Shown here in pieces: positions 4,930 through 32,813 of a stretch of 33,555 nt of DNA. The position numbers and the translations under genes are program-made. The notes under the pieces are model-generated. The model was not told the DNA's origin and searched no databases. It saw only the letters and a program-made list of their open reading frames with translations. The DNA is from a virus. How positions within the stretch are numbered: position 1 is the stretch's first letter; each line of letters opens with the position of its first letter. Where the stretch lies: positions 1 through 33,555 of IMG/VR virus record IMGVR_UViG_3300020395_000047, one strand, 5' to 3'.

Positions 4930-7900
4930 ATGTCGGAAAATACAAGAGTCAAAATTAGCTCAGTTGTTAAAAATCAACTGCCAGATTTCGTAAGAGATGA
5001 TTTTCCTCTTGCTGGTGAATTTTTAGCTCAATATTATACTGCTTTAGAGGGTCAGGGATCTACTCTAGATATTATACAAAATATAGACAAATATGTTAAA
5101 GTTGATGAGTTAACAGATTTAATACATACTACACCTTTATCTTCTAATGTAGGAATTACTGATAATGTTATAAATGTCAATTCTACAGTTGGATTTCCAG
5201 AATCTTATGGATTGTTAGAAATAGATTCTGAAATTATTACTTATACTGGAATTACTAGTAATACCTTTACTGGATGTGCTAGGGGATTTAGTGGAATTAC
5301 TTCTTATAGAAAACCTGGAGAAACAGATGAACTTCTTTTTTCTCAATCTGGGATTACTACTCATACTTCAGGAACATTAGTTAATAACTTAAGTATTAGA
5401 TTTTTACAAGAGTTTTTCAAAAAAGTAAAGACTCAAATTAGTCCAGGATTTGAAGAAAGAAAACTTTCTGATGATATTAATAAAAGATTATTTACTAAAC
5501 AAACAAAAGATTTTTATTCTTCTAAAGGAACTGATCAATCCTTTGAAATTTTATTCCGTGCTCTTTATGGAGAGGATGTAGAAGTAATTAAACCGAGGGA
5601 TTATCTTTTTATTCCTTCAGATGCTGATTATAAAGTTTCTGAGCAACTTGTAGTTAAAGCTATTGATGGAGATCCTACCAAACTTCTTAATAGAACTTTA
5701 TTTCAAGATCCTGTTTATGGATTCCCTAAAGCAGTTGGTTCTATAAGCAATGTAGAAAAGATAGTGAGAGGGGAAGAAGCATATTATAGATTAAGTTTAG
5801 ACTACGATCATAGTTTAGATAAAGTTACTGAAAATTTCTCTATTCACCCTAATACTAAATTAGTAGATTCTGTTTCTGTAGGATCTACTGTGATGAGCGT
5901 AGATTCTACTGTTGGATTTGGAACTACTGGGGTTTTGATTGCGGATTATGCAGATGGAACCTTTAGTTCTATTGAATATACTTCGAAATCCTTAACTCAA
6001 TTTTTTGGATGTTCTGGAATAAATCAAAATATTTCTCCTACTCAAAATTTAAGATTAGATGCTTATGCATATGGATATTCTGGTTTGGGGACTTCTAATG
6101 AAGTAAAAGTTGAAGTCACTGGTGTTTTATCTGATTTAAATTTGGAATTTGATTCTACTTATTATAATGAGGAAGGATCTGTTATAGAACCTAAGGGTTT
6201 AGGATCAATTTCTAAAAGTGAAATAACTAAAAATTTATTTACTAATATTTCAGCTACTTATAATGTAGAATCTATTGAACTTGTAGACGAATCAAACTTT
6301 ACTTATAAATTAACTCTTTATAATGATCATGATTTTATTGTAGGAGATACAGCTCTTATTAATAGTATAACATGTTCTATTATTTCTCTTGTTAGTTCTA
6401 GAGAAGTTTTAATTAAAGGTTCTGGAGAATTAAATCCTTTAGTAACGTATAGAATTCAAAGATTATTATCAAAAGCTAATTTAAGTAATTATCCAGAAGC
6501 GAGCATTTATACTACTAATATTCAAAACTCTTATTTGGATGATGAAGATGTTTATATTACATCTCCTTCTATTCCAAGTTACTTTAGTGATGCATTAGAT
6601 ATTAGAAATACTTCTTTAGTATTTTCTGGAAACTTTACAGAAGAGACTGAAATTGCTATTCCTAATCATGGATTATTGACAGGAGAAAGAATAATTTATG
6701 TGGCTGGAGAAGGTGATAATAAGTTAGATATTAGTGAGTCTGAATATTTTGTTAAAAAAGTAGATATTAATACAATTAAACTTTCTAAAAGTAGTGCAAG
6801 TATTTTAAATGATATCTATATTTCTTTTTCTGGAACGGTAACAGATAATAGATTTGAACTTTCTGATTTTAATAAGAAAACTATAAGATCTCATAAATTG
6901 ATAAGAAAAATTGGAACTCCTGTTTCTACTCTTAATACTCAAGCAACTCCTAGAGGAAAAACTGGTATTTTAATTAATGGTGTTGAGATACTTAACTATA
7001 AGTCTAAAGATGTTGTGCATTATGGTCCAATTGAAGATATATCTGTTACTAGTGAAGGAGATCATTATGATGTAATAAATCCTCCTATTTTATCAGTTAC
7101 TGACTCTGTTGGTACTGGAGTATCTGCATATTGTGAAGTTCAAGGAGCTGTAGAAAAAATTGATGTTGTAGATGGTGGATTTGATTATATTACTACACCA
7201 ACATTAAAAGTAAGTGGTGGAAATGGTTCGGGATGTGTTGCATACCCTAATTTAATTTTAAAAGAACATAGTGTAAGTTTTAACTCTATTGAGACTGCTG
7301 GATTAGTAGATCTTACTAATGATAGAATTGGATTTACAACTTTCCATAAATTTAGAGATGGAGAACTTGTAACTTATATTACAGACACTCAAACAGCAAT
7401 TGCAGGATTAACAACTAATGCTGCATACTATTGTTCTATAGTTGGACCTTCTACAGTTTCATTGCATACCAATTATCAAGATGCTATTCAAGGAGTTAAT
7501 AAAATTGATCTTACTGGATATGGTGCAGGTATACAAGAATTAAAGTGTGCAAATAAAAAGAGAATAATCAGTTCTGTTAGTATAGGAAATTCTGGTTCTG
7601 GATATACTAATAGATTAACTTCTACTACTTCTGCTGGAATCAATACTGCTACAAATACAATTAGTATTTCTAATCATGGGTATAAAACTGGAGAATTGAT
7701 AAGATATGATAATAAGAATACTCCTATTATTGGACTTACAACTTTAACCAATTATTATGTAACTTCAGTAAATGGAAGTTCATTTAAGTTATCTGCTGTT
7801 GGTGTAGGATCTACTCCAGCTAATTTTTATGTAAAGAATAAAGAATATGTTAAATTATCATCTGGTGGTGCTGGAATTCATGAATTTAATTATCCCCCTA

Positions 7901-10900
7901 TTACAGTTTCCTTAGAAGGATCTATTGGAGTTTCTACTCTCTCTGGACAAGATTTTAAAGCATCTTTAAGACCTGTAGTAAGAGGATCTATTAAGTCAGT
8001 ATTCATTGCTGAAGGGGGAAGTGGATATGGAGCTGATACAATAATCAACTATAACAGACAACCTAATTTTACAGCTAAGAGTGGTAAAAATGCTCAGTTA
8101 ATTCCCATAATCGATGCTGCAGGTAAATTATCAGAAGTTATAGTATTGAACTCTGGATCTGAATATAATTCTCCACCAGAATTAAAAATGGAAGGATCTG
8201 GAAAAGGAACTTATATGATTCCTATTTTGAAAGGAGATTCTATAGATTCAGTAAAAGTAATTAATAGTGGTATGGGTCATACTTCTACAGATGCTAGTAT
8301 AACAGTAACATCTAATGGAGAGGGAGCTAGTTTTTATGCTAATCCAAAAACATGGACTATTAATACTGTAGAAAGATTAATTCAAAATGATCAAATTACT
8401 ACTGATGATGGAATTGTAAGTGTTGGAATAAATGAAGAGTATGGTTTACAATACACTCATTTATATGCTCCTAGAAAATTAAGACAATCTTCTTATATTA
8501 AAAAATCTTTAGGAGAAAAAGAAGTTTTTGTACCTGATTTATCTTTAGAAAATGATATAGAAGAAGATTCTATTAACCATTCTCCGATTATTGGATGGGC
8601 TTATGATGGTTCTCCCATTTATGGTCCATATGGTTATGAAACAGCATCAGGAGGACCTATAAAGATTATTCAATCTGGTTATTCTGTATCTATATCAACT
8701 TATAGACCTAATCCTCTTACTGCTAATGAAGAGCAGATTTATGCTAATGGTTTCTTTGTTGAAGATTATGTATATAAAGGTGATAAAGATTTAGATGAGC
8801 ATAATGGAAGATTTTGCAAAACTCCAGAATTTCCTAATGGAGTATATGCTTATTTTGCTCTTATTAATAAAGATTTTAGGGATTCTGAAGGGGCATTTAA
8901 GAATTATAGAAAACCACAGTTTCCATATTTTATAGGTAATTCTTATAAGTTTAAACCTATAGAATATAACTTCGAGTATACTTCAAATCAAGATTCAGTA
9001 GATTTAAATTCTACAGACTTAGTTAGAAATACAACTCCATATAATTTTCTTTTTACAGATACTAGCTATGATTTCTTAGTAAATCCTAGTACTATTCATA
9101 AACAAAGAACCTATGTTCAATCTACAACTGCAGGAGTAATACAAAGAGTTGGAGTTAATAGTGGAGGGGATAGATATAAGGTTAATGATGAAGTAGTATT
9201 TGAAGATGCAGGATCTAATGGTTATGGTGCTAAAGCCTCGGTAGAGATAATTAAAGGAAAAACAATTAGTCAAATTAGTGTAGCTAATACTGAATTTTCT
9301 AATGTGGAGTTTGTGCTTGGAAAATATCCTGGACAATTTGTAGGATATACTACAAATCCTCATAATTTTTATCATAGAGAAACAACATATATTTCTGGAT
9401 TAAGTACTAGTGGTATACCCAATAATTCAATAATAAACGTTGGAGTAACAACTAATTTCTTTAAGTTATCTTCTGCTGTAAATGCTTCTTCTAGTACTGG
9501 CATAGTAACTTATTTTAATGTAGATGGATATGTAAGATATCCTTTTCTTAGAGAAAATGATATTTTAGGAATAGGTACTGAGACAGTAAAGGTATTAAAT
9601 GTTGAAACTGATAATAATAGAATTAGAGTAATAAGAGACTGGGATTCTACTATAGGAAGTTCTCATACTGCTAATAGTCTAATTACAGCCCATCCAAGGA
9701 ATTTTGATTTTAATGCTACATCATCTTTAGAAAATTCTGATATTAGGGTTAATAAGGAATTATATTTCAATCCAGCAGAATCTGTAGGATTAGGAACTAT
9801 TTCTGCAGTAGGAATTGGATCTACTATTGTATTTGCAAATCCAGGTACTGGAATAAGTGAGATATTCATTCCAACTAAATCTATGTACTTTAAAGAGCAT
9901 GGATTGTTAACTGGAGATGCATTAACTTATAGTACAAATGCAGGAGCAGCAGTATCAGTATCAACTGATGGAATTGATGGATTTGCTCTTACTCAAGGAC
10001 AAACAGTATATGCTGCAAAAATAACTAGGGATTTAATTGGACTTTCCACTTCAAGAGTAGGATTGGGATCTACTGGTTCTTTTGTAGGAATTGATACTAG
10101 TACTACAGCATCTACTTTATATTTTATTGGAGTAGGAACTGGAGTATATCATAGTTTAACCACTAATTATAATAATGTTTTGAAAGGGTCTTTAAGTAGA
10201 TCTTTAGTAACAGTAGCTACAGCTTCTACTCATGGACTTCAAGTTTCTGATAATATTATTCTATCTGCTAATCCTGGAGTAACTACTACTATTAATGTTG
10301 CTTATAATGATTATAATAGAAGATTAGTAATAGATCCTAGAAGTTTTGCAGCAGGAGATGTTAGTGTTGGTAATAATACTATTACAATTGCTCAACATGG
10401 TTATCAAAAAGGACAAAAAGTTATTCATACTGCTACTTCTGCTTCAGGTGGATTGATGAATAATGGAATATATTATGCATCTATTGTAGATAAGAATACT
10501 ATTAAATTATCTGATAATTATTATGATGCTATACATTTGGAACCTAAAGTAGTTAATATTACGAGTGCTGCTGCTGGAACTATTTCTGCAGTTAATCCTC
10601 CTATTACTTTAGAGAAAGATTTAAAGATGTATTTTGATCTTTCAGATTCTTCTTTATCTTTTGTTGAGGGAGGAACTTCTCAAAGTGCATTTGAATTTAA
10701 TCTTTATAATGATGTTCATCTTAAAGATCTGTTTTTCACTTCGGGAGAAAGTGATGATTTTAATGTTACTAAAAGTGGTAATATAGGTATAGATGCAAAT
10801 GCCAACCTTACAGTTAAGAATGTTGGAGAAATTGATCAAACAATTTATTATAATTTAACACCAACAAAGAAAGAAGGAAATACAGCAGTTAAGAAAGAAA

Positions 10901-13900
10901 TTATTAGGGATACTGAAAATATTAGTAATTCTAATTCTATAGTTTTAAGGAATAATATTTTAACTGGAGAACATTCTCTTGTTGGAGTAGGTTCTACTAC
11001 ACTTTCTTTCATATCTCCAGTTTCTCCTCCCAAATTAGTATATACTACAGCTGATGGAGAATTTTCATATTCTACAGATTCAAAAACAGCAGAAGGATCT
11101 ATAGGTATTGTGCAAGTAGAAAACGCAGGATTCCAATATAAAACTTTACCTGGAATTAGTACTATTATAACAGATAAAGGTAATAATGCTATTTTAGAAC
11201 CAGAAGGTACTGGCATTGGAAGAATAAGTAAGATTAAGATTGAAGATATTGGATTTGATTATTCTGTTGATAAAACACTTAGACCTGAAGCTAATATTCC
11301 TCAATTATTGCAAGTAGATTTACTTACTTCACTTGACAAAATTGGTATTACTTCTGTTGGTACTAATTATTTAAATTCTCCTGGTTTGGTTCTTTTAGAT
11401 GGATCAACTAAACAAAGAGTTGATGATGTGGAATTGGATTATGAAATAGGAGATAGTCAAGTTACTATTCTAAGTAATACTAAAACTTTAAACAATGTTA
11501 CTCCTACAATTATTCCTATAGATAATTCTAATGGAATTTCTATTACTAATATTGATTATGATAGCGGAAATAAAAATGTAACTGTAACTATTGGAGCTAG
11601 TTTTAGCGATGCTTCTGATTATCCATTTGAAGTGGGTAAGAAGGTTATGATTGAAGGTGTAAGTGTGGGGGTAGGAAGTACTGGTAAAGGATATAATAGT
11701 GTAGGTTATAATTATACTTTATTCGAAATCTTAGAGACAGATCCTAATATTGGAGGAACTCTTGGAACTGTAAGGTATAATTTATCCAATATTATTCCTG
11801 ATGGGGAAGTTCCTGGAGCATTTAAATCTGCTTTATCTGCTGGTAAAATTGTTCCTGAAGAATACTTCCCTATTTTTGATATTACCTTAAAAGGTAGTGA
11901 ATTTGATAAAGGAGAGAATATAGTATCTGGATTAAAGAAAGGAACTCTTCAATCTTGGAATAGTTCTTATGGAAATCTTAGAGTTTCTTCAGTTCAAGAT
12001 TTTGAAGTTGGAGAATCATTTATAGGGGAATCTTCAGGTACTAGAGGAACTATTACTGAGGTGGTAACTGATGATTCTGTTTATGGTGTAAATTCTTCAT
12101 CTATAGTTCAGGAAGGATTCCAAAAAAATACTGGATTCTTAAATGATGGATTACAAAGAGTTATTGATAGTGATTATTATCAATATTTCTCATATTCACT
12201 TAAATCTGAAGTAGCATATGAAAAATGGAAAGAACCCGTATCTTCTTTAAATCATACTTCTGGATTTAAGAAATTTAGTGATTTAATCATAAGAACAGAG
12301 CAAAGTGTAGGAGTAGTTACTTCTCAAACAGAAACATCTTTCGAAGTGGTTAATGATTTGATATCAGTAATGGATTTAAATACTGTATTTGATTTTGACC
12401 TAGTAAGAGAAAAAACTTTGAATATAAATTCTAATATCATTTCAGATGAGTTAGTTTTTGATTCTAAAATTCTTCAGGATTATAATGAGTCTGTTGGTAA
12501 TAGAGTATTAACTATTGATGATATTAGTGGTGAGTTTAATGCTAATGCAAGAACAGACCCTTATATGTCTGTAGATAGCTTTACTTTGGAAGATGTAAGA
12601 TATAGAAAATATATTGCTTACATTACAGATAAAAGATATACCAAAGAAAGGCAAATAATGCTAGTTTCATCAGTTCATGATGATATTGGTAATATTTACT
12701 TAAATCAATATGGTAGAGTTGAAACTAATACAGATTTGGGTGAATTTGGAGGTGATTTAGGATCATTCGATATGGATATGAAGGGTGATGATGGAAGACT
12801 ACTATTTTATCCTAAAAAATATCAATATAATAATTATAACGTTTCTACTCTTGCTTATAATATTTCTGATAGTGTTGCTGGAGTTGGATCTACTGGATTG
12901 GGTGGAATTGTTAATGTAGTAAGTAGTACCACAACTATTCCTCTAGGAATTAGTACACAGCACAATATAGTATCTTTTGCTACTACTTACAGAGCATCTA
13001 AGGTTTTAGTGTCTTATGCTGCTAGTGATTCTTCATATTATGAACATGATGAAATAACTTTAATTCATGATGGAACTAATGTAGATTTGGTAGAATATGG
13101 ACAATTAACTACTGATAATTTGAGTGGATCTGCTATTCCAGGATTAGGTACTTATAGTGCTTATATTGGAGGATCTAGAGTTCATTTAGATTTACATCCT
13201 ACAGTATCTACAGCTAGCACTTATGTTGCTAACACTATTCATGTTAATTTTGGAAATGCATCTTCTGCTGGAATTGGAACTACTTCTTTAGATGCTGCTA
13301 CTTTAGATTCTTGGTATACATCAATATCTGCTAGTGGCACTCCATCTGCTAACACAATAGCCAAATATGAAACTGAGACATTCACTAGTGCTTATTATAT
13401 TGTATGTGTTGAGGATACTACTAATAGTCAATATCAAGTATCTGAAGTTATAGTAGTAGATGATGGAACTACTTGTTATATAACTGAGTATGGAATCAAT
13501 CAAACTGGTTCTAATTTGGGTGATTTTGATGCAACTATTTCTGGAGATTATACTGAGTTAACATTTACTCCTTTAGCAAGTGCTGATGTTCAAGTTAGAG
13601 TATATCAGAATACTTTAAGGCTTGTAGATGATCTTAATCCTGTTAATGAAATAGATCTTACTAATGCTACTATTGATACTGGATCTGGTGCATATGATGC
13701 TACAGAGTCTGATGTTAAGAGAGCATTCGATCTGAAGCATAGACAACTCCCAATCTTTAAGAGAAATTTTGTAGGAAGTGCTACTACTGTAGTAAGTCTT
13801 GATGAAGATAGTATTAGAATACCTGATCATTATTTTGTTACAGGTGAAGAGTTATCTTACAGATATACTGGATCTGGTACTACTTCAGCAATTATAATTG

Positions 13901-16900
13901 AAGAGCAAGCTATACCTGGATATGGTACTACAGATAAGTTACCTTCTAGTGTTTATGCTATTAAGGTAGATGATTCTACTCTTAGATTTGCTAGTTCTGC
14001 AGAAAATGCATTAAAGACTAATCCTACTTATTTGGACATAACTGCTGTTGGAGTAGGTACATCTCATTCATTTACATCAACTAAGCAGAATTCAAGATGT
14101 ATATTAAGCATTGATAATGTAATTCAATCTCCAATAGTTGCTACTGCTGTAACAACTACTTTAAGTGGTTCTGTTTCACAGACTGCTGATACTATAAGAC
14201 TTTCTGGTATTACTTCTATTACTGGTGGTGATATGTTAAAGATTGGTGATGAGATTATGAAAGTTGATTCTGTTGGATTAGGTGCTACCAATATTCTATT
14301 GGTTAATAGACCTTGGATGGGTACTCAATCCACGAATTATGATGATGGCACTTTAGTAACTAAAGTTGAAGGAAGTTATAATATTGTAGATACTACTGTT
14401 AACTTCTTTACTGCTCCTGTAGGATTAACACCTATTTCAACTACTACTAATGAACCTAGTGAAAGGGATTGGGTTGGTGTAGCAACTCATTCTACCTTTA
14501 ACGGAAGATCATTTATGAGATCTGGTATTACTGGTAGTTCTGATGAACCTTATGCTGGCAACTATATCTTTGATGATATTTCTAGTAACTTTACTGGATT
14601 AACTACTCAATTTACTCTTCAATCAGATGGAAGTAATATAGCAGGATTCTCTACAAATAATGCTATTGTATTAGTTAATCAGATAGCACAAGGTCCTCAA
14701 AGATATACTGGTAACGTATCTGTTCCAGGTGATTATACTCTTATTGAAGGAGCTACAGGAATTAGTAGTATTCAATTTACAGGATCTGCTTCTTCTGTGG
14801 GATATGATCCTAATACTGCTACTGTTCCTTTAGGTGGAGTTATAGTTTCTGTAGGATCTACTGCAGGATTAGGTTATCAACCTTTGGTTGCTGCTGGTGG
14901 TACTGCTCTTGTATCTGGATTAGGTACTATTAGTTCTATTAGTATAGGAAATAGTGGATCTGGATATAGAACTGGTATACAGACAGTTGTGAATGTGGGT
15001 GTTCAAACATTAAGCACTGCAGAACCTAATATAGAGTTTATTGGTACTGCTGCTATAAGTGGTGGTCATATTGTTAGTATTGCTATTACTAATCCTGGTA
15101 CTGGATATACAACAACTAATCCACCAGCAGTGGTTATAGATGAACCATTATCTTATGATAATATGCCTTTATTCTATACTTCTTCTTCTAGTGGTGTAGG
15201 ATCTGAAGCAAGAGCTAATATAGTGGTAGGTCAAGGATCTAGTGTAATTACATTTGAAATTACTAACCAAGGATATGGTTATGGTGAAACTCAAAAGTTA
15301 ACCATAGGTGTTGGTGGTACTGTAGGAATTCCTACAGCAGGGTATTCTAATTTTGATGAATTCCAATTAACAATACAAGAAACTATTAGTGATAGTTTTG
15401 CTGGATGGACTGTTGGAGACTTCTTAGTATTAGATCCATTAGATGCATTATTCGATGGTCAAACTGTTTCCTTTGCTTTAAATCTAAATGGAACTCAGCA
15501 AACTATTCAATCTAAACCAGGATCTAATATAGATGTTGAAGTTGCTATTTTAGTCTTTATTAATGATATTCTTCAAGTTCCTGGAGTTGGATATGAGTTT
15601 AAAGGTGGTAGTTACATTACCTTTAAAGAAGCTCCTAAAGTAGGTGATACTTCTAAGATTCTATTCTATCAAGGAACTGGATCTGTAGATGTTACTAATG
15701 TTGATATTTTAGAAACTGTTAAAATAGGTGATGAAGTTAAATTATACGATCAAGCTCTTTCTTTAGAAGAAAATGACAGAACAGTAAGTGTTATCAATTC
15801 ATCAGATAGTCTTAAGACTAATCTATATCCTGGTCCTGGAATTACTACTAATGAAACTTTCCAGAGATCTGTAATATGGTCTAGACAAACTGAAGATAAA
15901 GTTATTGATGGTGCTGCAGTTACTAAGGATAGACCACACTATGAACCATTGATTTATCCTAATACTAATATTATTCAATCTGTAGGAGTTGGATCTACTG
16001 TAATTTTTGTTTCTAATATAAGAACATTCTTTGATAGTTCTAAAGAGAATTATACTGGACAAACTGATCTTAGAATAATATCTCAAGATACTATAGTTGG
16101 AGCATCTGCTACTGCCTTAGTATCTGTTGCTGGAACCATTAGTTCGTTTGATATAACAAATGCTGGTGTGGGTTATACTATAGCACCTACTGTATCAATT
16201 AGTCTTCCTATAGGTTTATCTACTTCTCAAGGTGCTCAAGCAACTGCAAGTATAAGTGGAGGATCTGTAGATTCTATTTCAGTATCTTATGGAGGAACTA
16301 CTACAGGATTTGCTTATACTAGTCTTAATGCTCCTTCGGTTTTAATTGCAGAACCTAAATTAGTAACTTCTATTGAAACTATTGAAGATGTATCATATTC
16401 TGGTGATTTTGGAATTATATCTGGTATTGCTCAAACTTCTGTAGGTGTGGCATCTACTGGTATTGTCTTCGATTTACTTCTTCCAAAAGAATCACCATTC
16501 AGAGATGCTTCTATTGTAGGAAGTGCATTAACTGTAAGTGGAATTTCAACTGGATATTACTTTACAGTCTTTAATTCTAATGTAGGTGCTTCAGTAACTT
16601 CTCTTTATCAAGATGGTACTGTAGTTGGTATAGGAACATCCTTCTTAGATAATATCTATGAAGTTGCTCAAGTATCTATTGCTCAAACTATGGGTATAGG
16701 AATTGGATTGACCTATGTTGCCCAAGTAACAGTAAGTGTTCAAGATTATAATGGACTAACTGGACTAGGATATAGTGAGTTCTTTGGTGAATATAGTTGG
16801 GGTAGAATACAAACTGCTCCTAGAGCATCTGCAAGAGTATTTACTTCTTATGCTGGTGATCAGAATGGATTGGTAGGAATAACTACTTCTCCTATAGTAG

Positions 16901-21500: not shown

Positions 21501-24500
21501 GAGATATAACCACTGTTAATTCTTATGATAATTTTGATTATGGCGATTTACCTTTAATTAATAATACTAGAGTAAGTGATATTATTGATATAAGACCTAG
21601 AGTTGATGAATTTTCTGGAACTGCACGTTCTCCTTTCGAATTTTTAGGTAGAAATTTAGATGGAAATGGAAATTCTGCTCAGAATATTTTAGCATCTGAT
21701 AAATCTACTGTATTAAGTTATTCTTTCTATCTTCCTAGATTGGATAAAATTTATCTTACTAAGGGTGGAAGCTTCCAATTAAATCAAGGAGTACCAGCAG
21801 AAACTCCAGAATGGCCTGTTCCTATTGATGGAGCTTTAGAAATAGCATCTATTAAGCTACCTGCATATCTCTTTAATATTAATAATGCAAGTATAACTCT
21901 TGCAAATTATAAGAGATATCAGATGAGTGATATCAATAAACTTGAAAAGAGAATTGAAAATTTAGAGTTCTACACTACTCTTTCTTTATTAGAAAATAAT
22001 ACGTTAAATATGCAAATCACTGATACAGATGGTTTGAATAGGTTTAAATCTGGATTTTTTGTAGATGATTTTTCTAATACAGACAATCAAATTAAGAGTA
22101 CTATAGTAAAAAATGCTATTGACTATCATCATGGAGAGTTAAGACCTACTCCATATACTACTGAACTAGATTTACAACTAGATTTAAATAGTGCTAATGG
22201 AGTTAGAAAAACTGGAAGAGTATTAACTTTAGATTATGATGATGTAGAACATATGTCTCAACTTTTTGCTACTAGAGTTGAAAATATTACTCCATATCTT
22301 GTAAGTTATTATGGAGGAACTATAGATCTTCTTCCAGATACTGATATATGGGTAGATCAAGTTGTTCTTGAAGCTAAGAATGAAGATTTGGTTACTTATA
22401 CAGAAAATTCTGAACAATTAGATCAAGCTGGATTTGATTCTAGATCAGGATATGGACCTGTTACTTGGGGTAGATGGCAAGATAGTTGGACTGGATTTAC
22501 AGAAAATTGGACAGATACTACTAACGAGTGGGTTCATGATGAATACATCAGGAAGACAACTGTAAATGGTCAAAAAACTGGAACTTCTACCAGAACAGGA
22601 ACCAAACAACTTGTTAGAGAAACCTTTAGTACTATTAATGAAGGTCCTAAAGTAATTAATACTCAAGTTGGTTCTTATATGAGATCTAGAAACATCAGAT
22701 TTGATGCTAGAACTTTAAAACCATCAACTGGAATTTATGCATTTTTTGATAGTCAAGATGTATCTAAGTATATTATTCCTAAGCTTCTTGAAATTTCCAT
22801 GACTACTGGAACTTTTTCAGTGGGAGAAACTGTTATAGGTCAAACTTCTAATGGAAAAGAATTAATTAGGTTTAAAGTAGCTCAATCTAATCATAAACGT
22901 GGACCTTTTAATGCTCCTACTGAGACATTTAAAGCTAATCCCTATTATCAATTTACTCCTTTAACTAAAGGAGCAACTGGAAGAACTTTAGGTGCTGTTA
23001 TAGTTGATAATATTGTTCCTTCCGTTTCAGATACAACATCTACAGATGCTTCTGCTTCATCAGATCTTGTTAATATTCCAGAATTATATTCTACAACATC
23101 TAGTATTCTTAATATAGATTTAGAAGCTTTAGCAGAAAAGGCAGATAATACTTATTATGGATATGTTGAAAAAGGTCTTAAATTAGTAGGACAAACATCT
23201 GGTGCTCAAGCTTCTATTTCTAATGTAAGACTTAGAACTGATACTTTAGGAAGTATAATTGGATCATTCTTTATTCCTAATCCTAATGATATAACTACTC
23301 CTAAATTTGATACTGGCAAAAAAGTATTCAGACTTACTAGTAATAAGTTTAACAGTCAAATTGAAGGAAATGTTACATCAGATGCATCAGAAATATTTGA
23401 ATCGAGTGGAAAGATTGATACAGTTCAATCTACTATTATTAGTGTGAAGAATATTCATACTGATATTTTAACTAGAGTAGAATCCAAATCTATATCAGGA
23501 CCTACTACCACTAATACACATACTCAAGTAATTAATACACGATCTCCAGGAAGGAGTGGAGGAGCACGTGTTGTAGATGTAACTAATACATTAACAAGAG
23601 CAAATGTTCTTAGACATGAACCCACATTTGTACCTAAAGTTGATATTAAGATAGATCATGGTACTGGAGCCGCTGCTACTGAACAAGGAGGTGAAGTTGT
23701 TGTTGAAGTAAATGATCCTATTGCAGCTGCTTATATTGAGGTCTTTGGTAATGATGATGATTTAGATGAAGGTGCTGCTACTTATTGGACTGCATCTATT
23801 GTAGCTGAATTGGGAGCAGGAGCAAGTTCCCAAGCCATTCAAAGAGAGATGGTAAAACATGCTACTTGGGCAAAAGAAACTAGTGAAGCTGAGAAAACAG
23901 CTTTCGCAGCAGCTAATAAAGAAGCTGTTGATGCTACAATGGCCACTGTAACAGAATTAAGTGGAAAGACTAGAGAAGATCTATCTAATATGACTAAAGA
24001 ATGTGGATGGGGTGTTAAAGACCCTCTTGCACAATCTTTCTTTGTAGGTCCAGGAACAGGAATTTATGTTACTAAGGTAGATCTTTATTTTGGTTCTAAA
24101 GATGAATTTTTACCTGTAAGTGTTCAATTAAGAACTATGCAGTTGGGAATGCCTACTACAGAAATTATTCCTTTCGGTGAAGTAGTTTTAGATCCAGATG
24201 ATGTCAATGTATCTGATGATGGTAGTGTAGTTACAACAGTTACTTTCCCATCTCCAGTTTATTTACCTGGTGGAAAATCTTATGCAATTGTTCTCTTATC
24301 TACAAGTAATGATTATACTGCTTGGATTTCTAGAATGGGAGAAGTTGATGTTCAAACTAAGAATAAACCAGAATCTGAACAAGTAGTAGTTAGTTCTCAG
24401 CCTACTTTAGGATCTTTATTCAAATCTCAAAATGGTGAAACTTGGAACCCAAGTCAATATGAAGATCTTAAATTTACTCTTTATAGAGCAGAATTTAAGC

Positions 24501-26479
24501 AAAGAACTGGTAATATTAATTTCGTCAATCCTCCTTTAGTAACTTATTCTGATGATATACCACCTTTACTTAAAGATTCATTTAGTATCAATTCTAATAA
24601 AATAAGAATAGGATTTAATACTACAATATCTGATACAGGAATAACTTTAGGAAATACTATTCAACAGTTGGGTAGTAATGCTACTGGTAATTATGTTGGA
24701 TCTGCTGGAACTGCTACTGGCAATCTAACTATCACCAATGCAGGAATTGGATTTACTCCTTCTTCTGGTGCTTGGACTTATCAAAATGTTTCATTAACTA
24801 CTATTACTGGTTTTGGTAGAAATGCAACTGCTAATATCACTATTAGTAATGGAGTAGCATCTGCTGCCACTATATTAAGTGGTGGTAGTGGTTATGTGGT
24901 AGGTGATGTAGTAGGACTAACTCAAATAGGTGTTAATTCTTTAGGAAGAGATCTTAAATTCTCAATAGCTTCTCTTACAGGAACTAATGAATTCGTTCTT
25001 GATAATGTTCAAGGAGAGTTTGCTACTGGTGTAGGTAAAACAATTAATTATGTTACTAGTGCAGGTATAGTTACTCTTAATCATGCTGTTGGAGGGAATG
25101 TTTGGTTATCTGGAGATCCTATAGAGACTACAGATGGTCTTCACATTAAGATAAATCAGAAAAATCATGGAATGTATTCTTCGCAGAATAATGTAACATT
25201 TGAAAATGTAGAATCTGATGTTCCTGCTACTCAATTAGCAGCAGATTATGATTCAGCATCAACAGGTTCTATTATTGTAGACGATGGAACAAACTTTGCT
25301 GAATTTGAAAATGTAGGTGTGGGTTCTACTAATTTAGGTTATATTAAAGTTGGAACAGAAATTCTTTCTTATACTGGTGTGAATTCTAATACATTAACTG
25401 GTGTAAGTAGAGGAGTTGATTCTACTCCAACCCTAACTCACAATACTCTTGATTATGTTCATAAGTATGAATTGAATGGAGTTTCATTGAGAAGAATTAA
25501 TACTACTCATAATATAGCAAATTCTACAGTAACTGATCCTAGAGGATTAGATCATTTTACTGTTAAAGTAGATATGTCTACTAATGGAGTAGATAGATCT
25601 GTAGGAACAAGCTTACCTAAATTGCACTTTAATCAAACTAAATCTACTGGAGGATCTCAGATTCTTTCTACTGAAAATATACCATTTGAAATTGTAACTC
25701 CTATAGTTCAAAATATAACTCCACAAGGAACTAATCTAACAGCACAAATTAGAACTGTTAGTGCCTCTAGTATAGATGGATCAGAAACTCCTTTCCAAGA
25801 TCAAGGTTTTGAAGATATTTCTCTTGAGAGTGATAATTATATGTCTACTCCTAGAATGGTAGCTTCTAGAATTAATGAAACCACATCATTACCAAATCTT
25901 CCCGATAATAAATCATTTACTTTGAATTTATCATTGTATGGACAAGATGGTGGAGTTTCTCCTATGATTGATTTGGATAGAATTGGAATGATTCTTACAT
26001 CAAATAGGATTAACAATCCAATAGATGATTGGATAACAGATAATAGAGTTAATACTCTAAAGAATGATCCTAATTCTTTTGTATATGCATCCAAACCTAT
26101 TACTTTGAAGTCTGGAGCAACTGGAATTAAGATTCATTTAGAAGGTCATATTAATGTAACCAGTGATCTTAGAGCATTCTATGCAATTTCTGAAGGACCT
26201 AATGATGAATTAGTTTATCAACCTTTCCCTGGATATTCTAATATGCTACCTACAGGACAAATTATTGATCCTGCTAAGAATAATGGTCTTCCTGATAAGT
26301 TAACTGCTAAAACAGATGTTATAGCTTATCTTCCAAGTGAGGTAGTGTGGAATGATTATGAATATACAATTGATAATTTACCAACTTTCAAATACTTTAG
26401 TATTAAATTGATAGGAACTGGTACAAATCAAGCTCAACCACCTAGAGTGAAAAATCTTAGAGTAATTGCAATTGCTTAA
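18539..26479 (+). CDS. Giant DUF4815 virion structural protein (2646 aa)
   Basis: The N terminus (MPQETNLNVAPYFDDFDAKD, FKPGLPVQARELTGIQSILQ, KFGQHIFKDGSSV) is the DUF4815 signature of large tail and baseplate proteins in cyanophages and other myophages. Conserved blocks follow: ITLANYKRYQMSDINKLEKR and EFYTTLSLLE (about 1120-1155), LFATRVENITPYLVSYYGGT (about 1241-1260), KDPLAQSFFVGPGTGIYV (about 1828-1845), and YMSTPRMVASRINETTS with DLDRIGMILTSNRINN near the end. A helical DUF4214-like segment lies at about 1723-1780. G-x-GY repeats (24721-24930) and an EiiSY-RG module (25312-25465) occur in the C-terminal third. Placed between gp8 and the neck genes, it probably forms the outer baseplate or fibre connector in place of T4 gp9-gp12 (inference). 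Confidence 0.85.
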   Translation: MPQETNLNVAPYFDDFDAKDNYCKILFKPGLPVQARELTGIQSILQNQIEKFGQHIFKDGSSVTGGGVRYNGGYHSVRIQVSNEGIDVSSYILQLVGQVVIGSESGVKAKIKSFIGKPTDSDWYVLFVTYLNTGGDENEIFSAGESLLLDNRILTTAEGPVFQPGEPIAQCVNTNPCFTGCAAVLSSGIYFIRGYFIDVPEQTLVLDPYTNIVDAKVGLKIRETIVTADLDESLKDNAAGFSNYTAPGADRLGISVRLQSLDITETKPSNFIELMEIRNGELTFMRPEVEYNELANELAKRTFDESGNYYIKPFTLTARNTLNDYEGNNGIFNANQITYNNNTPTDDLGTYRLTPGKAYIEGFEVETIVPAFLDFPKPRTTKTLKNQSINYVTGPTFTLNRVSGAPQIGVGTDYTVSLRDQRIGVAATTAAGNEIGLARVYDFALEEGGYNLSNANENLWDIALYDIQTYTNITLNTTATLPIPTHIKGKSSGATGYLRYEVNAGTAVTAYNTKGKFITGEQFIFNGVESGHISAGSTSYTTSDIKSINGTVSTASTFNADVVQTTLTNIGPVNISAATTDGSSIGLSTVTLQDPNKFFIGIATVGNIVQYTNPNTTGLTTTSYARVESVSQNSLTISGVTTVAGVCEGGLPTSIAGVSTFKSINSPYFKILGSQFQSSVDNNLYTKFPKNNISNVDLTSSDIVIRKQFDVTITDNSTGAISSGNVNETFLPYNEEEYVLIRTDGTTEALSADKFAFNTGSTEITINGLGTNSEAKLIATLRKIKVTEKIKEKQKIKVLNIVGSAHSTSGIGTTTLNDGLTYNTVYGTRVQDEEISLNFPDVTKVYGIFESQDTNNASLPIATLTSINSSTGKTGDLLVGEKFVGKDSNCTGIYVSKNSDTAINYLLLNDFDVQIGETLTFQESGITAKVGTLSLGSHDITKEFTYDDGQRNTLYDYARLIRKSGYDAPFKRLSVIFEYGYYTASDTGDITTVNSYDNFDYGDLPLINNTRVSDIIDIRPRVDEFSGTARSPFEFLGRNLDGNGNSAQNILASDKSTVLSYSFYLPRLDKIYLTKGGSFQLNQGVPAETPEWPVPIDGALEIASIKLPAYLFNINNASITLANYKRYQMSDINKLEKRIENLEFYTTLSLLENNTLNMQITDTDGLNRFKSGFFVDDFSNTDNQIKSTIVKNAIDYHHGELRPTPYTTELDLQLDLNSANGVRKTGRVLTLDYDDVEHMSQLFATRVENITPYLVSYYGGTIDLLPDTDIWVDQVVLEAKNEDLVTYTENSEQLDQAGFDSRSGYGPVTWGRWQDSWTGFTENWTDTTNEWVHDEYIRKTTVNGQKTGTSTRTGTKQLVRETFSTINEGPKVINTQVGSYMRSRNIRFDARTLKPSTGIYAFFDSQDVSKYIIPKLLEISMTTGTFSVGETVIGQTSNGKELIRFKVAQSNHKRGPFNAPTETFKANPYYQFTPLTKGATGRTLGAVIVDNIVPSVSDTTSTDASASSDLVNIPELYSTTSSILNIDLEALAEKADNTYYGYVEKGLKLVGQTSGAQASISNVRLRTDTLGSIIGSFFIPNPNDITTPKFDTGKKVFRLTSNKFNSQIEGNVTSDASEIFESSGKIDTVQSTIISVKNIHTDILTRVESKSISGPTTTNTHTQVINTRSPGRSGGARVVDVTNTLTRANVLRHEPTFVPKVDIKIDHGTGAAATEQGGEVVVEVNDPIAAAYIEVFGNDDDLDEGAATYWTASIVAELGAGASSQAIQREMVKHATWAKETSEAEKTAFAAANKEAVDATMATVTELSGKTREDLSNMTKECGWGVKDPLAQSFFVGPGTGIYVTKVDLYFGSKDEFLPVSVQLRTMQLGMPTTEIIPFGEVVLDPDDVNVSDDGSVVTTVTFPSPVYLPGGKSYAIVLLSTSNDYTAWISRMGEVDVQTKNKPESEQVVVSSQPTLGSLFKSQNGETWNPSQYEDLKFTLYRAEFKQRTGNINFVNPPLVTYSDDIPPLLKDSFSINSNKIRIGFNTTISDTGITLGNTIQQLGSNATGNYVGSAGTATGNLTITNAGIGFTPSSGAWTYQNVSLTTITGFGRNATANITISNGVASAATILSGGSGYVVGDVVGLTQIGVNSLGRDLKFSIASLTGTNEFVLDNVQGEFATGVGKTINYVTSAGIVTLNHAVGGNVWLSGDPIETTDGLHIKINQKNHGMYSSQNNVTFENVESDVPATQLAADYDSASTGSIIVDDGTNFAEFENVGVGSTNLGYIKVGTEILSYTGVNSNTLTGVSRGVDSTPTLTHNTLDYVHKYELNGVSLRRINTTHNIANSTVTDPRGLDHFTVKVDMSTNGVDRSVGTSLPKLHFNQTKSTGGSQILSTENIPFEIVTPIVQNITPQGTNLTAQIRTVSASSIDGSETPFQDQGFEDISLESDNYMSTPRMVASRINETTSLPNLPDNKSFTLNLSLYGQDGGVSPMIDLDRIGMILTSNRINNPIDDWITDNRVNTLKNDPNSFVYASKPITLKSGATGIKIHLEGHINVTSDLRAFYAISEGPNDELVYQPFPGYSNMLPTGQIIDPAKNNGLPDKLTAKTDVIAYLPSEVVWNDYEYTIDNLPTFKYFSIKLIGTGTNQAQPPRVKNLRVIAIA
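23709..23880 (+). other. DUF4214-like helical segment inside the DUF4815 giant
   Basis: The stretch around PIAAAYIEVFGNDDDLDEGA, TYWTASIVAELGAGASSQAI and REMVKHATWAK follows the DUF4214 pattern: helix with Y-x-x-x-(L/F)-G, acidic loop, G-x-x-YW, helix ending in G-x-S-x-x-x-(I/V), then a helix. DUF4214 usually has 'GR' where this has 'GN'. It interrupts an otherwise beta-rich protein and is followed by an Ala/Glu-rich helix. Confidence 0.55.
24721..25465 (+). repeat. G-x-GY and EiiSY-RG modules in the DUF4815 giant
   Basis: Codes for ITNAGIGFTPSS and LSGGSGYVVGDVV, matching the G-x-GY repeats of the gp7-like protein, gp8 and gp14. These are followed by VGVGSTNLGYIKVGTEILSY and TGVSRGVDST, matching the EiiTY-RG module of gp7 and gp15. 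Confidence 0.7.
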
Positions 26480-27946: not shown

Positions 27947-29344
27947 ATGGCACTTAATCCCTATTTCTTACAAGGATCTTCTACAGAACAGAATCTAGTC
28001 CAAAGCTTAATCAATGAACAGATTAAGATGTATGGAGTGGAGGTATATTATATTCCTAGAAGATATATGACTAAGACCACTGTAATACAGGAGGTCATTG
28101 AATCTAAGTTCGAGGAAGCAATTCCATTAGAAGCATATGTAGATACCTTTGATGGATATGAAGGTCAAGGTTCTCTTCTATCTAAGTTTGGTGTTCAGGC
28201 ATTAGATGATTTAACTCTTATTATATCAAGAGATAGATTTGAAAACTATATTACTCCACTTATTAAGAATATACCAAACATAGAATTAGCAACTAGACCT
28301 AAAGAGGGAGACTTAATATATTTTCCATTAGGAGATAGATTATTTGAGATTAAGTTTGTAGAACATGAAAAACCATTTTATCAGTTAAAGAAAAATTATG
28401 TATATGAACTCAGATGTGAGCTTTACAGATATGAGGATGAGGTCATAGATACAGGAGTGGGTGATATTGATGATAACCTAGAGGAAGCAGGTTACATTGA
28501 AACACTTACTCTAGTGTCATCAGGAACAACTGCAGTTCTTACAGCTGGTATTGTTGATGGTGCATTAAGTAAGGTTACTATATCAAATAGAGGATATGAT
28601 TATACTAGTCTTCCAAGAGTTGCTATTTCCTCTGCTCCTTCAGCAGGATTAACTGCTATAGGTATAGCATCTATGAGGGATGATTTAGTGGATTATGATG
28701 GTGAGAAATCTTATAAGATTCAAAGGATAGATATTATTAATCCAGGTTATGGATATACTGTAGGACAAGAACCTGAAGTATACACAGTTGGTGGTGGAGG
28801 TGCAGGATTTGCTGCTACTGCCACTGTATCTGATGGTGCTATTGGAATAGTCACAATTACATCTGGAGGTAGTGGATACTCCACAACACCTACAATCACC
28901 TTCTCAGCACCTCCTGGAGCAGGTAGAACAGCAACTGCAGTTGCATATGTAGGTAGTGGTAATACAGTAGGTATTGTTACCCAAATTGGTATTACTGATG
29001 CTGGATCTGGATATACCAGTCCTCCAACTATTACAGTCACTGCACCTTACATGGGTGGTTCTGGAAACTATGTCTTTAATGAAGTAGTAACTGGTTCTGT
29101 AAGTGGTTCTACTGGTAGAGTTAAATCTTGGGATGCATCTACTATGGAACTCAATGTTTCAATCACTACAGGTGCATTTACAGTTGGAGAAGTTATTACA
29201 GGAGAAACATCAGGTGCAACCTATGAATATCAATTAGTTTCTTCTACTAATACTGATGATGGATTTGCTGAAAATAGTCCTATACAAAGTGCTGCTGATA
29301 ATATAATAGACTTCACAGAGACCAATCCATTTGGAATGCCCTAA
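27947..29344 (+). CDS. 14: Neck protein gp14 with large internal insertion
   Basis: A 465-residue homologue of T4 gp14 (256 aa), the second neck ring protein. Residues about 1-180 are the conserved core (NPYFLQGSSTEQNLVQSLIN, YYIPRRYMTKTTVIQEVIES, RPKEGDLIYFPLGDRLFEIK, YQLKKNYVYELRCELYRYED). The last 30 residues (AENSPIQSAADNIIDFTETN, PFGMP) are the conserved tail. Between them, about residues 183-434 are an insertion: four G-x-GY-x-x-x-P repeats (ISNRGYDYTSLP, INPGYGYTVG, TSGGSGYSTTP, TDAGSGYTSPP), then two 'V-x-G-x-x-S-G' segments (VTGSVSGSTG, ITGETSGAT). The insertion uses the same modules as the giant baseplate proteins. It starts four bases after the gp13 stop. Confidence 0.92.
   Translation: MALNPYFLQGSSTEQNLVQSLINEQIKMYGVEVYYIPRRYMTKTTVIQEVIESKFEEAIPLEAYVDTFDGYEGQGSLLSKFGVQALDDLTLIISRDRFENYITPLIKNIPNIELATRPKEGDLIYFPLGDRLFEIKFVEHEKPFYQLKKNYVYELRCELYRYEDEVIDTGVGDIDDNLEEAGYIETLTLVSSGTTAVLTAGIVDGALSKVTISNRGYDYTSLPRVAISSAPSAGLTAIGIASMRDDLVDYDGEKSYKIQRIDIINPGYGYTVGQEPEVYTVGGGGAGFAATATVSDGAIGIVTITSGGSGYSTTPTITFSAPPGAGRTATAVAYVGSGNTVGIVTQIGITDAGSGYTSPPTITVTAPYMGGSGNYVFNEVVTGSVSGSTGRVKSWDASTMELNVSITTGAFTVGEVITGETSGATYEYQLVSSTNTDDGFAENSPIQSAADNIIDFTETNPFGMP
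28495..29250 (+). repeat. G-x-GY repeat insertion within gp14
   Basis: Codes for about 250 residues: four G-x-GY-x-x-x-P units spaced 50-75 residues apart, each followed by a P-x-(I/V)-x-(I/V/F)-x-x-(A/P)-P strand and an Ala/Gly-rich segment, then a V-x-x-G-E-x-(I/V)-x-G-x-(T/S)-SG pair. It separates the conserved gp14 core from its conserved tail. Confidence 0.75.
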
Positions 29345-29373: not shown

Positions 29374-30375
29374 ATGTTTGAATATTTTTATCACGAAATA
29401 ATGAGGAGGACCATTATATCCTTTGGTTCTATCTTTAATAATATTAATATAAACCACGAAAATAGTGATGGTTCTGTTGTAAGTACGACTAAGGTTCCTC
29501 TTGCTTATGGTCCTACTCAAAAGTTCCTAGCAAGATTGGAGCAAGTACCTGATCTAAACAGACCAGTTCAAATTAGTCTTCCAAGAATGTCATTTGAACT
29601 AAATGGTCTTAGTTATGATCCTGCAAGAAAATCAACAACTACACAAACATTTTTAAAAGGAGTTAAAGGAGATAAGAGTACCTTAGCAAAAACATATCTT
29701 CCTGTACCATATAACTTAGATTTTGAACTTAGTATATTCACTAAGTTGAATGATGATATGCTTCAGATAGTAGAGCAAATTCTCCCATACTTTCAACCTG
29801 CATATACTGTATCAGTAGACCTAGTTGATACTATTGGAGAGAAAAGAGATATTCCTATTGTTTTAAATTCTATCACTACTAGTGATGATTATGAGAGTGA
29901 TTTTTCTACTAGAAGAGCACTTATCTATACTATGAGATTTACTGCCAAGACCTATATGTTTGGTCCTGTCAATACAGATATTACCAAGGATGTTATCAAG
30001 AAAGCATCTATTGGATATGTTGCTGGTGGCAAGACATCTACTCCAACTAGAGAAGTTACATATAGTGTTGTACCTAGAGCAACTAAGGCATATGGTGATA
30101 CTGTTACTACTAACTTGAGTGAAAATATAGATGATAGTATTGCTATTATTAATGTAACCAGTGCTAGTGGTATTGAAGCAACTAATTACATATACATAGA
30201 TCAGGAGGAAATGTATGTCGAATCCATTTCAGGAACAGCATTAACTGTTAAGAGGGGTCAAGATAATACTGCTGCTGTAGACCATGTAAATGGTGCAGAA
30301 GTTAAAGTTATCACTTCTACAGATAATAATGCTATAGAATTTGGAGATGACTTTGGTTTTGATGGAACTATCTAA
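29374..30375 (+). CDS. 15: Tail sheath stabiliser/terminator gp15
   Basis: A 333-residue homologue of T4 gp15 (272 aa), which caps the sheath and joins tail to neck. The conserved start is MFEYFYHEIMRRTIISFGSI followed by FNNI, then VPLAYGPTQKFLARLEQVPD, LPRMSFELNGLSYDPARK and YLPVPYNLDFELSIFTKLND, LQIVEQILPYFQPAYTVSVD. Residues about 245-312 are an inserted EiiTY-RG module (TNYIYIDQEEMYVESIS then VKRGQDN and DHVNGAEVKVI). The tail NAIEFGDDFGFDGTI is the conserved C terminus. It is preceded by AGGAA (about 29363) as a weak ribosome-binding site, and its stop overlaps the gp16 ATG (TAATG). Confidence 0.94.
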   Translation: MFEYFYHEIMRRTIISFGSIFNNININHENSDGSVVSTTKVPLAYGPTQKFLARLEQVPDLNRPVQISLPRMSFELNGLSYDPARKSTTTQTFLKGVKGDKSTLAKTYLPVPYNLDFELSIFTKLNDDMLQIVEQILPYFQPAYTVSVDLVDTIGEKRDIPIVLNSITTSDDYESDFSTRRALIYTMRFTAKTYMFGPVNTDITKDVIKKASIGYVAGGKTSTPTREVTYSVVPRATKAYGDTVTTNLSENIDDSIAIINVTSASGIEATNYIYIDQEEMYVESISGTALTVKRGQDNTAAVDHVNGAEVKVITSTDNNAIEFGDDFGFDGTI

Positions 30376-30800: not shown

Positions 30801-30806
30801 AGTATA

Positions 30807-30836
30807 GGGAGAGAAATCCCACAGTATTTTGATACT
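30807..30836 (+). other. Two short inverted repeats in the gp16-fibre gap
   Basis: GGGA (30807-30810) pairs with TCCC (30817-30820), and AGTAT (30823-30827) pairs with ATACT (30832-30836) around TTTG. Both stems are short and fall in the leader of the 656-aa gene, which has no Shine-Dalgarno sequence. They could modulate translation or mRNA ends, or be chance. Confidence 0.3.
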
Positions 30837-30842
30837 CATAAC

Positions 30843-32813
30843 ATGTCTGACGACTATAAAAATTTACCATCGATTGACGACTTTGAAGAAAGTAATGAAG
30901 AATTACCGTCAGTTGCTGATCTTGTAGAAGAAAAAGATTTACCATCTGTAGAAAGTTATATAGAAAAAGAAGAAGAAATAGAAGAAGCTGTACAAACTAT
31001 AGAAGATGCTAATGGCGAAACCTTTGCTGAAGTAAAGGATATAGTTCCCCCTTGGCCTGAATTATTACGTTTAGTTAATGATGTTAAAGAAAGTATTCCT
31101 GAGATACCTGAGATAAAGTCATATGACAATGAACTACAAGAACTTTTAACTCATATAGAACAAGTAAGGGAAAGCATTCCAGAAGTCCCAGAAGTAAGAT
31201 ATTATGAAGATCAGATAGAAGCACTAAAAGAAGATATTGAAGGGGTTAGAGGAGATATTCCTAAGTTCCCTAAGTGGGTTAATGAGGTTAATCAAGTACC
31301 AGATTTTTCTTGGATTGGCAAGACCTTTGGTGTAATTGATGATGACTTTGAAAAGGTCAATGATAACTTACATACCCTTAAAGATACATTTAATCAGGAT
31401 ATAGAGAATCTTACAGAGAATCTAGAACTTAAGGATTTTGAAAAGAAGGTTGAGATTAAGGAAGTAAAAGAGTATCTACAAGAAACCAAGGATAAAATAT
31501 ATGAGGAATTGAAAGAGACTGCTCTTAAAATATATGAGCATAGGAATCAGTTTAAAGATGATGATAGGAAGTTAAAAAAGAGTGTATTAAGTAAACTGAA
31601 TGAAGCAAAACAGAATATTGAGAAAAAGATAGATGAGTCTAATAGTAAGTATCGAGATTCTAATAAAGAAATTAGAAATTACTTCAATGGATTGAAAGAG
31701 GAAGTTGCTAATCTTCCAGAAGTAAAATACTATGATAAGGATATTAGGAAGTTAAGTGATAAGACAGAAACTCATACTGTTAATATTGCAGACCTTTATA
31801 AGATTGTTGAGGATATAAAGGGAAAGCAAGAAGTATTAAAAGAAGGATATGATAAGTATGCTTTTGGTACAGATCCAGCAAGACCTATAGGACCTGATCC
31901 TAAAGAAAAGCAAGGTAATGATCCTCTTACTGCTACAGATCAGAAGTTTGCTACTCTTCAAGATTTAGCAGCAAACTATAGGTTATTTGTTAATAGAGTT
32001 GAGCAGCAATTATATACCATCGGTGGAGGTGGTGCAGGATTTATAAAGGATCTTGATGATGTTAATTTTGATTCTACTAATAATGACTTATTAATATATG
32101 ATGGTGATAATTCTAGATGGGTTGGTATTGCTAGTACTGCTCTTGCTGGTTCTCCTTCAGAATTAGCTAATTCTTGTTCTGGAAATAATCTTACAGTAAA
32201 ACATCTTTCTGTAACTGGAATAGCTACTTATGAAGATGTAAAAAATATTGATTCTATTGGTATTATTACTGGTAGAAGTGATATGAATATTCAGGGGAAT
32301 GCCACTATAGTTGGTATTCTTACTGTAGGTTCTTCATCTATTACTTTTGATGGTGATGCTAATGTAGTTAATGTTGGAACTGGAATTACTATAAATGCTT
32401 CTAGCAATACAATTGAGGTAGGTGGAAGTAAAATTGCGGATGCTAGTGGTAATGCTAATTTTGTGGGAGTTGTAACTGCTACTGCTTTTGATACTTCTAT
32501 TGGAGAAATAAGAGGAACTTCTAAAACTGTTACTTCTACTAGTGGAGTGGTTATTGTGGGAATTACTACTGCATATAGATCTGCTACTTATCAAATACAG
32601 GCAACTCAAGGTTCTAATTATAATATGACAACTATCCATGTTATTCATGATGGAACTAATACATATATGACTGAATATGGAACTATCAATGTACCAACAG
32701 GAATAGCAACTTATAATACAGATATTAATAGTGGAGTAATGAGACTCATTGGATATGCCTCCTCTACTACTTCAACTACGTTTAAAGTATTTTCAACTGC
32801 AGTAGATCGCTAA
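30843..32813 (+). CDS. Coiled-coil and fibre-like virion protein (656 aa)
   Basis: A conserved type of protein between the terminase genes of cyanophages. Residues 1-60 are acidic, with repeated LPS(I/V) units (LPSIDDF, LPSVADL, LPSVESY). Three P-E-(I/V)-x-E-(I/V)-(K/R)-x-Y-(D/Y) units occur near 85, 111 and 291, each followed by a helix. About 145-345 is a long charged coiled coil (FEKKVEIKEVKEYLQETKDK; LNEAKQNIEKKIDESNSK). A Gly hinge (GGGGAG) with IKDLDDVNFDSTNNDLLIYD starts a fibre-like part with 'VTGI...VGI' and 'GIITGRSDM...VGILTVG' repeats typical of marine phage fibres. The C terminus (about 577-653) is a copy of the DGTN-EYG domain found in gp7. It is probably a neck whisker or head-tail fibre; identity with T4 wac is not shown. 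Confidence 0.8.
   Translation: MSDDYKNLPSIDDFEESNEELPSVADLVEEKDLPSVESYIEKEEEIEEAVQTIEDANGETFAEVKDIVPPWPELLRLVNDVKESIPEIPEIKSYDNELQELLTHIEQVRESIPEVPEVRYYEDQIEALKEDIEGVRGDIPKFPKWVNEVNQVPDFSWIGKTFGVIDDDFEKVNDNLHTLKDTFNQDIENLTENLELKDFEKKVEIKEVKEYLQETKDKIYEELKETALKIYEHRNQFKDDDRKLKKSVLSKLNEAKQNIEKKIDESNSKYRDSNKEIRNYFNGLKEEVANLPEVKYYDKDIRKLSDKTETHTVNIADLYKIVEDIKGKQEVLKEGYDKYAFGTDPARPIGPDPKEKQGNDPLTATDQKFATLQDLAANYRLFVNRVEQQLYTIGGGGAGFIKDLDDVNFDSTNNDLLIYDGDNSRWVGIASTALAGSPSELANSCSGNNLTVKHLSVTGIATYEDVKNIDSIGIITGRSDMNIQGNATIVGILTVGSSSITFDGDANVVNVGTGITINASSNTIEVGGSKIADASGNANFVGVVTATAFDTSIGEIRGTSKTVTSTSGVVIVGITTAYRSATYQIQATQGSNYNMTTIHVIHDGTNTYMTEYGTINVPTGIATYNTDINSGVMRLIGYASSTTSTTFKVFSTAVDR

Follow-up and report, generated by a model that had tools for sequence, protein, structure and literature searches.

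Shared β modules in the virion proteins of a T4-like cyanophage and a candidate gp9-like fibre socket within gp7

In the virion gene cluster of a T4-like cyanomyovirus, a 33.5-kb IMG/VR contig (IMGVR_UViG_3300020395_000047, positions 1 to 33,555, analysed in full and hereafter the window), six proteins share four small β modules, termed HG, GY, EY and DG, and three DG units lying in tandem within the giant baseplate wedge protein gp7 resemble the C-terminal domain of T4 gp9. We give about even odds (0.5) to the reading that T4-like cyanophages reuse small β domains as optional, outward-facing cassettes of baseplate and neck, which would hold and dock fibres and contact sugars. T4-like cyanophages are among the most abundant marine viruses, their giant wedge proteins mostly carry the annotation "hypothetical", and we know of no account of how their fibres are attached and carried.

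Results

Four modules are shared by six virion proteins

One hidden Markov model (HMM) per module was built from the window copies and iterated on the open reading frames (ORFs) of nine phages and the window, with reversed sequences as decoys. Searches with these profiles, checked against reversed and shuffled sequences, confirmed HG, GY, EY and DG as homologous modules, with 0 reversed-sequence matches at E<1e-3. The window proteins carrying them are gp7, gp8, DUF4815/VrlC, gp14, gp15 and a 656-aa fibre-like protein: GY occurs in gp7 (six domains), gp8, DUF4815 and gp14 (three), EY in gp7 (three), DUF4815 and gp15, DG in gp7 (three) and the 656-aa protein, and HG in gp7 only (six). Profiles seeded from gp7 copies alone reached gp14 with GY (4e-5) and the 656-aa protein with DG (1.7e-7), the top reversed matches being 0.2 to 0.8; EY reached gp15 weakly in this way (0.41) and needed the multi-phage profile (8e-18). 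A scan of 1113 ORFs from 317 metagenomic viral loci found the modules in the same host proteins again and none in gp6, gp13, gp16 or a 129-aa protein, and the numbers of PHROGs families matched by GY, EY, HG and DG copies are 20, 12, 9 and 4, respectively, spread over the wedge, neck, head and fibre classes.

The proposal of a sequence-only reading that β modules are shared across at least six virion proteins is thus borne out by per-module HMMs, including gp7-only seeds. Of the five module types that it listed, HG, GY, EY and DG stand, whereas the fifth, VGxGST, is enriched (8 occurrences versus 0.09 in local shuffles) but is a motif rather than a module, since its contexts are heterogeneous and lie partly inside HG and EY. 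A trace of HG that it had noted in DUF4815 found no HMM support, and it overlooked a sixth module, SG (GExIxGxxSGA), common to gp14 (29066..29239; all features given here are on the plus strand), DUF4815 (22784..22870) and gp7 (11932..12045). An SG profile seeded from gp14 alone matched DUF4815 at 1e-4 and gp7 at 1.4e-3, with a top reversed match of 0.68.

The DG units resemble the C-terminal domain of T4 gp9

The chief module carrier is the 4003-aa gp7-type wedge protein (4930..16941; phrog_2885, baseplate wedge). Its DG unit 1 comprises aa 2548-2651 (12571..12882; unit HMM 4e-29), unit 2 aa 2659-2779 (12904..13266; 3e-33) and unit 3 aa 2789-2925 (13294..13704; 3e-34). Compared with one another, the units are clearly homologous (P about 1e-9 to 1e-10), and a further DG module forms the C-terminus of the 656-aa protein (32571..32807; DG HMM 1.4e-29). 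Among the ORFs of phage T6 the DG HMM ranked gp9 first (0.0035, the next match being at 1.3), a score equalled by 1 of 3000 shuffles. Alignment of the DG profile with 29 non-redundant gp9 sequences by hhalign gave P 2.7e-6 over gp9 196-288, compared with 0.06-0.54 for HG, GY and EY as negative controls; unit 2 by itself aligned with gp9 175-285 at P 2.4e-4. DG also matches PHROG 967, a gp9-like connector, and a gp9 HMM run on the window gp7 gave weak matches to units 2 and 3 (~1). Sequence searches of the PDB with DG returned no match.

An AlphaFold2 model of gp7 2540-3480, built with 47 homologs, is mostly confident over its residues 1-620, a stretch that takes in all three DG units together with an HG and an EY module; each DG unit is predicted to have about eight strands, the predicted local distance difference test score (pLDDT) being mostly 80-91 in unit 1 and ~90 in unit 3. 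When the model was compared with 350,542 PDB chains using Foldseek, T4 gp9 (1qex) was the sole match below 1e-3, and among the viral predictions of BFVD gp7 relatives came first, followed by cyanophage fibres and the gp9+10 protein of Aeromonas phage 65. Profiles and predicted fold together argue strongly that DG is homologous to the T4 gp9 C-terminal domain.

Between its gp7 and gp8, P-TIM68 has a gene of 814 aa (L004:6579-9020) that starts with an N-terminal anchor resembling that of gp9/gp10 (2.9e-7); no gene occupies this position in the window.

The DG units come as a triplet

Copy number was determined over 200 gp7 ORFs spanning conserved anchors on either side of the DG block, which fall into 44 sequence clusters. 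Exactly three DG units are present in 198 of them, and the other two contain two confident units. A separate scan started from phage S-CAM9 yielded 33 spanning gp7 ORFs, all with 0 DG units. Metagenomic loci are related, so that these counts are not independent, and the sampling favours triplet-bearing gp7 because the search patterns by which three-copy loci were found lie partly within the DG region, which the S-CAM9 scan offsets only in part. Given three units in 198/200 ORFs and none in the 33/33 S-CAM9-like ones, the DG block behaves in this sample as a triplet that is retained or missing as a whole.

In T4, gp9 is trimeric and present in 18 copies and gp7 is monomeric and present in six; the N-terminal domain of gp9 is seated on gp7, and the fibre is attached coaxially to its C-terminal domain (PMC3004832). 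With three DG units on each of six gp7 chains, the total would be 18 domains, equal to the number of gp9 chains in T4. Because DG resembles the gp9 C-terminal domain and the numbers agree, we propose a covalent pseudo-trimeric socket: the DG units would be homologs of the trimeric socket domain that bears the T4 long tail fibre, fused in tandem inside gp7, and the three units of one chain may fold into a pseudo-trimer, so that the fibre mount would be a covalent part of the wedge.

Modules behave as optional cassettes

In an alignment of gp14, the GY array lies between the core and an SG-like stretch in the window, P-TIM68, S-CAM9 and MED4-213, whereas in S-SSM5, S-RIM44 and HTVC008M, which lack GY, the core directly joins the SG-like stretch and the conserved C-terminal DFTExNPFG tail. 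EY is absent from gp15 of ACG-2014f, S-SSM5 and HTVC008M with the flanks on either side retained, S-CAM9 gp13 has an HG module at a site occupied by a short loop in all others, and S-CAM9 gp7 lacks exactly the stretch bearing the three DG units in the ortholog alignment. At the locus of the 656-aa protein, DG is fused to the fibre C-terminus in seven loci and forms a separate ORF in seven, never both; these stand-alone ORFs (L110:12120, L116:10608, L140:12331 and four more loci) encode 121-136 aa, mostly the DG domain, and lie just downstream of a GY-bearing fibre homolog without DG.

Precise insertions of GY in gp14, EY in gp15 and HG in S-CAM9 gp13, together with the loss of the DG block as a unit, agree with the suggestion of the sequence-only reading that the modules are transferable, and as the insertions fall at surface loops the alignments suggest that the modules face outward. 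That the set "circulates" through virion proteins, as the same reading put it, is too strong for EY, whose nearest neighbours in other phages sit in the same host protein in 22 of 23 cases, so that its spread is ancient; the nearest neighbours of GY are mixed (48 in the same host protein, 53 in a different one). Recent exchange between proteins was rejected on the ancient pattern of EY, that of GY being mixed at this divergence.

GY weakly resembles domain I of the tail sheath protein

GY modules are located in gp7 (7027..7215, 7987..8193, 11098..11283, a tandem pair at 14926..15309, and 16036..16203), gp8 (17594..17791; GY HMM 1.7e-14) and DUF4815 (24719..24922; 1.4e-6), and as an array of three HMM domains inserted in gp14 (28481..29041; 6.7e-15). 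Among T6 ORFs the sheath protein gp18 was the top match of the GY profile (102-145, 8e-4, the next being 0.82), which 0 of 3000 local shuffles equalled, and 28 of 79 gp18 homologs were matched at E<0.01, the top matches shown all lying near the domain I position. In the reverse search several best matches of a gp18 domain I profile were GY copies, none individually significant, and the Pfam family of this domain (PF22639) matched 3 of 37 GY copies (best 0.0024). In T4, retracted fibres are bound by domain I, which projects from the sheath, and the G106S substitution in it blocks retraction (PMC3004832); by elimination, the glycine of the GxxY motif in GY appears to correspond to G106. These matches are suggestive of a relationship between GY and gp18 domain I. 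The sheath, too, can do without domain I: among 77 aligned T4-type sheath sequences, about 9 (L478, L479, L481-L485 and others) lack it.

As GY in the gp7 model was of too low confidence, a gp14 model was used for its structure (pLDDT ~80-95 over the array). The matches of this model in the PDB fall on the gp14 core, not on GY, and a single-query phmmer search of the PDB with the gp14 GY block gave no match. In S-CAM9 and P-TIM68, GY is present in fibres and in gp5 as well; in the gp5 tail-lysozyme proteins it lies near the C-terminus (L380:10947-13073 and L381:12038-14665).

HG resembles the endosialidase β-barrel

The six HG modules of gp7 are located at 6634..6852, 7306..7539, 7639..7884 (PF12195 sub-threshold at gp7 899-936), 9862..10155, 10360..10587 (PF12195 0.018) and 13792..14070 (pLDDT 72-91). 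The HG profile matched the endosialidase 4hiz at 9.7e-4 and aligned with residues 441-495 of the K1F endosialidase, a match that 0 of 3000 shuffles equalled, and PF12195 recognised 8 of 32 HG copies. On this profile evidence we regard HG as homologous to endosialidase barrels of known structure.

EY, flanking genes and annotation

EY modules were found in gp7 at 5149..5310 (EY HMM 4e-22), 5872..6054 and 14239..14361 (pLDDT ~80), in DUF4815 at 25277..25438 (3.7e-15) and inserted in gp15 at 30127..30282; neither Pfam nor a sequence search of the PDB gave a match for EY. No structural counterpart emerged for EY or SG.

The gene order of the window is gp25, gp6, gp7, gp8, DUF4815/VrlC (2646 aa), two small genes, gp13, gp14, gp15, gp16 and the 656-aa protein, with Prochlorococcus phage P-TIM68 as the closest annotated relative found (78% identity in the gp14 N-terminus). 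A profile of the N-terminal family of the 4003-aa protein matched T6 gp7 724-758 at 2.6e-8, top of 81 T4-like control ORFs, identifying the protein as a true gp7 relative. It contains a YHYH domain (8566-8868; Pfam 6.7e-21), which is predicted to be a tail-associated metal-dependent hydrolase (PMC7824862). The 129-aa protein (26686-27075) matches the PHROG "L-shaped tail fiber protein assembly", and its HTVC008M counterpart has a marginal DG match (0.0035). NCBIfam searches yielded nothing useful; the Rad50 and SMC matches that the 656-aa protein gave there appear to reflect coiled-coil composition and were discarded.

In public records a gp7-like pelagiphage protein (HTVC008M L008:33435-36485) is labelled "head closure Hc2" and a DUF4815-type protein of P-TIM68 (L004:10630-18504) "putative neck protein"; both labels appear to be annotation errors carried over by the shared modules.

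Discussion

Our reading is that the modules are optional cassettes of baseplate and neck with different partners: the DG triplet would hold the fibre, the GY arrays on gp14, gp8, DUF4815 and gp7 may offer extra docking sites for folded-back fibres, like T4 sheath domain I, and the HG copies are probably sugar-binding barrels. Taken further, this would mean that in this marine T4-like group the gp9 homotrimer has been replaced by a gp7 pseudo-trimer plus a GY docking domain spread over neck and baseplate proteins, a proposal that we put forward tentatively, as possible rather than probable.

Almost all of the evidence comes from sequences or predicted structures, and several observations weigh against these ideas. 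For DG, unit 1 on its own does not match gp9 in hhalign (P 0.15) and unit 3 does so weakly (0.018), the predicted template modelling score (pTM) of the whole modelled gp7 segment is 0.49 with three-fold packing of the units not seen, and because DG-like sandwiches match tailspikes in Foldseek as well (6e1r, 6c72), the fold may be one of trimeric fibre domains in general. S-CAM9 does without the triplet, and no replacement gp9 C-terminal domain was found in the ~84% of its genome that the search covered, ~16% lying outside it. Compared directly by hhalign, GY and gp18 domain I align only weakly, over 24 columns at P 0.0017, the window HG copies shown reach 15.4 bits with PF12195, the gathering score of which is 35, and no endosialidase is among the best 50 PDB matches listed by Foldseek.

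The β-barrel that HG matches is, in the K1F endosialidase, a polysialic-acid site and a hotspot of host discrimination (PMC12632334), and two GY-like repeats are present in the depolymerases Dpo31/Dpo36 (2.8e-5). Both facts would also suit receptor-binding decorations, that is, many weak sugar sites across baseplate, neck and fibres that grip the cell surface, and host recognition has been proposed for these large proteins (PMC7029224). HG, however, is limited to gp7 within the window and the neck proteins are distant from the cell surface, and we regard this explanation as a real possibility that falls short of being probable.

The modules might instead be generic stabilising or spacer β domains with no specific partner, comparable to the Ig-like domains of phage proteins and retained for the stability of the particle, the likeness of DG to gp9 reflecting the jelly-roll sandwich common in phages. 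Their absence from relatives, the mixed neighbours of GY and the tailspike matches of DG speak for spacers. The gp9 comparison, however, is supported by in-register sequence profiles and thus goes beyond fold, and an all-or-none set of three is unexpected since the copy number of spacers usually drifts; we consider spacers less likely than not.

The sequence-only reading had raised a common outer lattice or a common ligand. A lattice, in which modules of different proteins bind each other into one continuous layer, would account for the recurrence of module types on neighbouring proteins of the baseplate and also at the neck, but no module is common to all hosts, GY of gp14 or EY of gp15 is individually missing in close relatives, and gp14 and gp15 at the neck and gp7 and gp8 at the baseplate occupy opposite ends of the tail, which makes it very improbable. 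Nor is a single ligand supported; the best leads point to different partners, the tail fibre for DG and perhaps GY, and sugar for HG. Low-complexity convergence in Gly/Ser/Thr/Val-rich β proteins, to which biased composition, short motifs and the heterogeneous VGxGST contexts might point, is scarcely credible given the empty reversed searches, the leave-host-out matches across hosts and the module-free negative-control proteins.

Should the cassette reading and its DG triplet hold, the fibre mount of the group would be predictable from sequence and directly testable, fibre attachment and stowing would be built into the structural chains of the tail, and gp7 would provide a clear case of a homotrimeric connector becoming a single-chain pseudo-trimer.

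Comparison with known systems

Ig-like and BACON repeats of phage virion proteins are likewise optional β modules with copy-number changes; the families are unrelated, Pfam giving no Ig-like or BACON match for the window modules. With endosialidases (PF12195; 4hiz), HG has in common the I-x-HGL-x-x-GD-x-V-x-F core and its position in the K1F and phi92 barrels; unlike them, it is repeated six times within a wedge protein of the baseplate that has no sialidase propeller. The Acinetobacter depolymerases Dpo31/Dpo36 (28lx, 8ck1), in which the GY-like repeats span 422-505, are trimeric tailspike enzymes; GY there belongs to a tailspike. The likeness of GY to T4 gp18 domain I (PF22639; PDB 3fo8) at 102-145 is weak and partial, and unlike domain I, GY is repeated and is carried by proteins of the neck and baseplate rather than by the sheath. 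With the T4 wedge, the window shares both the homologous gp7 segment and the gp6-gp7-gp8 order, here preceded by gp25. Unlike T4, it encodes no stand-alone gp9 between gp8 and gp13, and a gp9 HMM detects neither the N-terminal coiled-coil anchor nor the middle domain of gp9 in the window. What DG matches, by profile and predicted fold, is the eight-stranded C-terminal β-sandwich of gp9 (196-288), and just as T4 has one gp9 trimer per wedge, the window phage has three such domains per gp7, in its case all on one chain.

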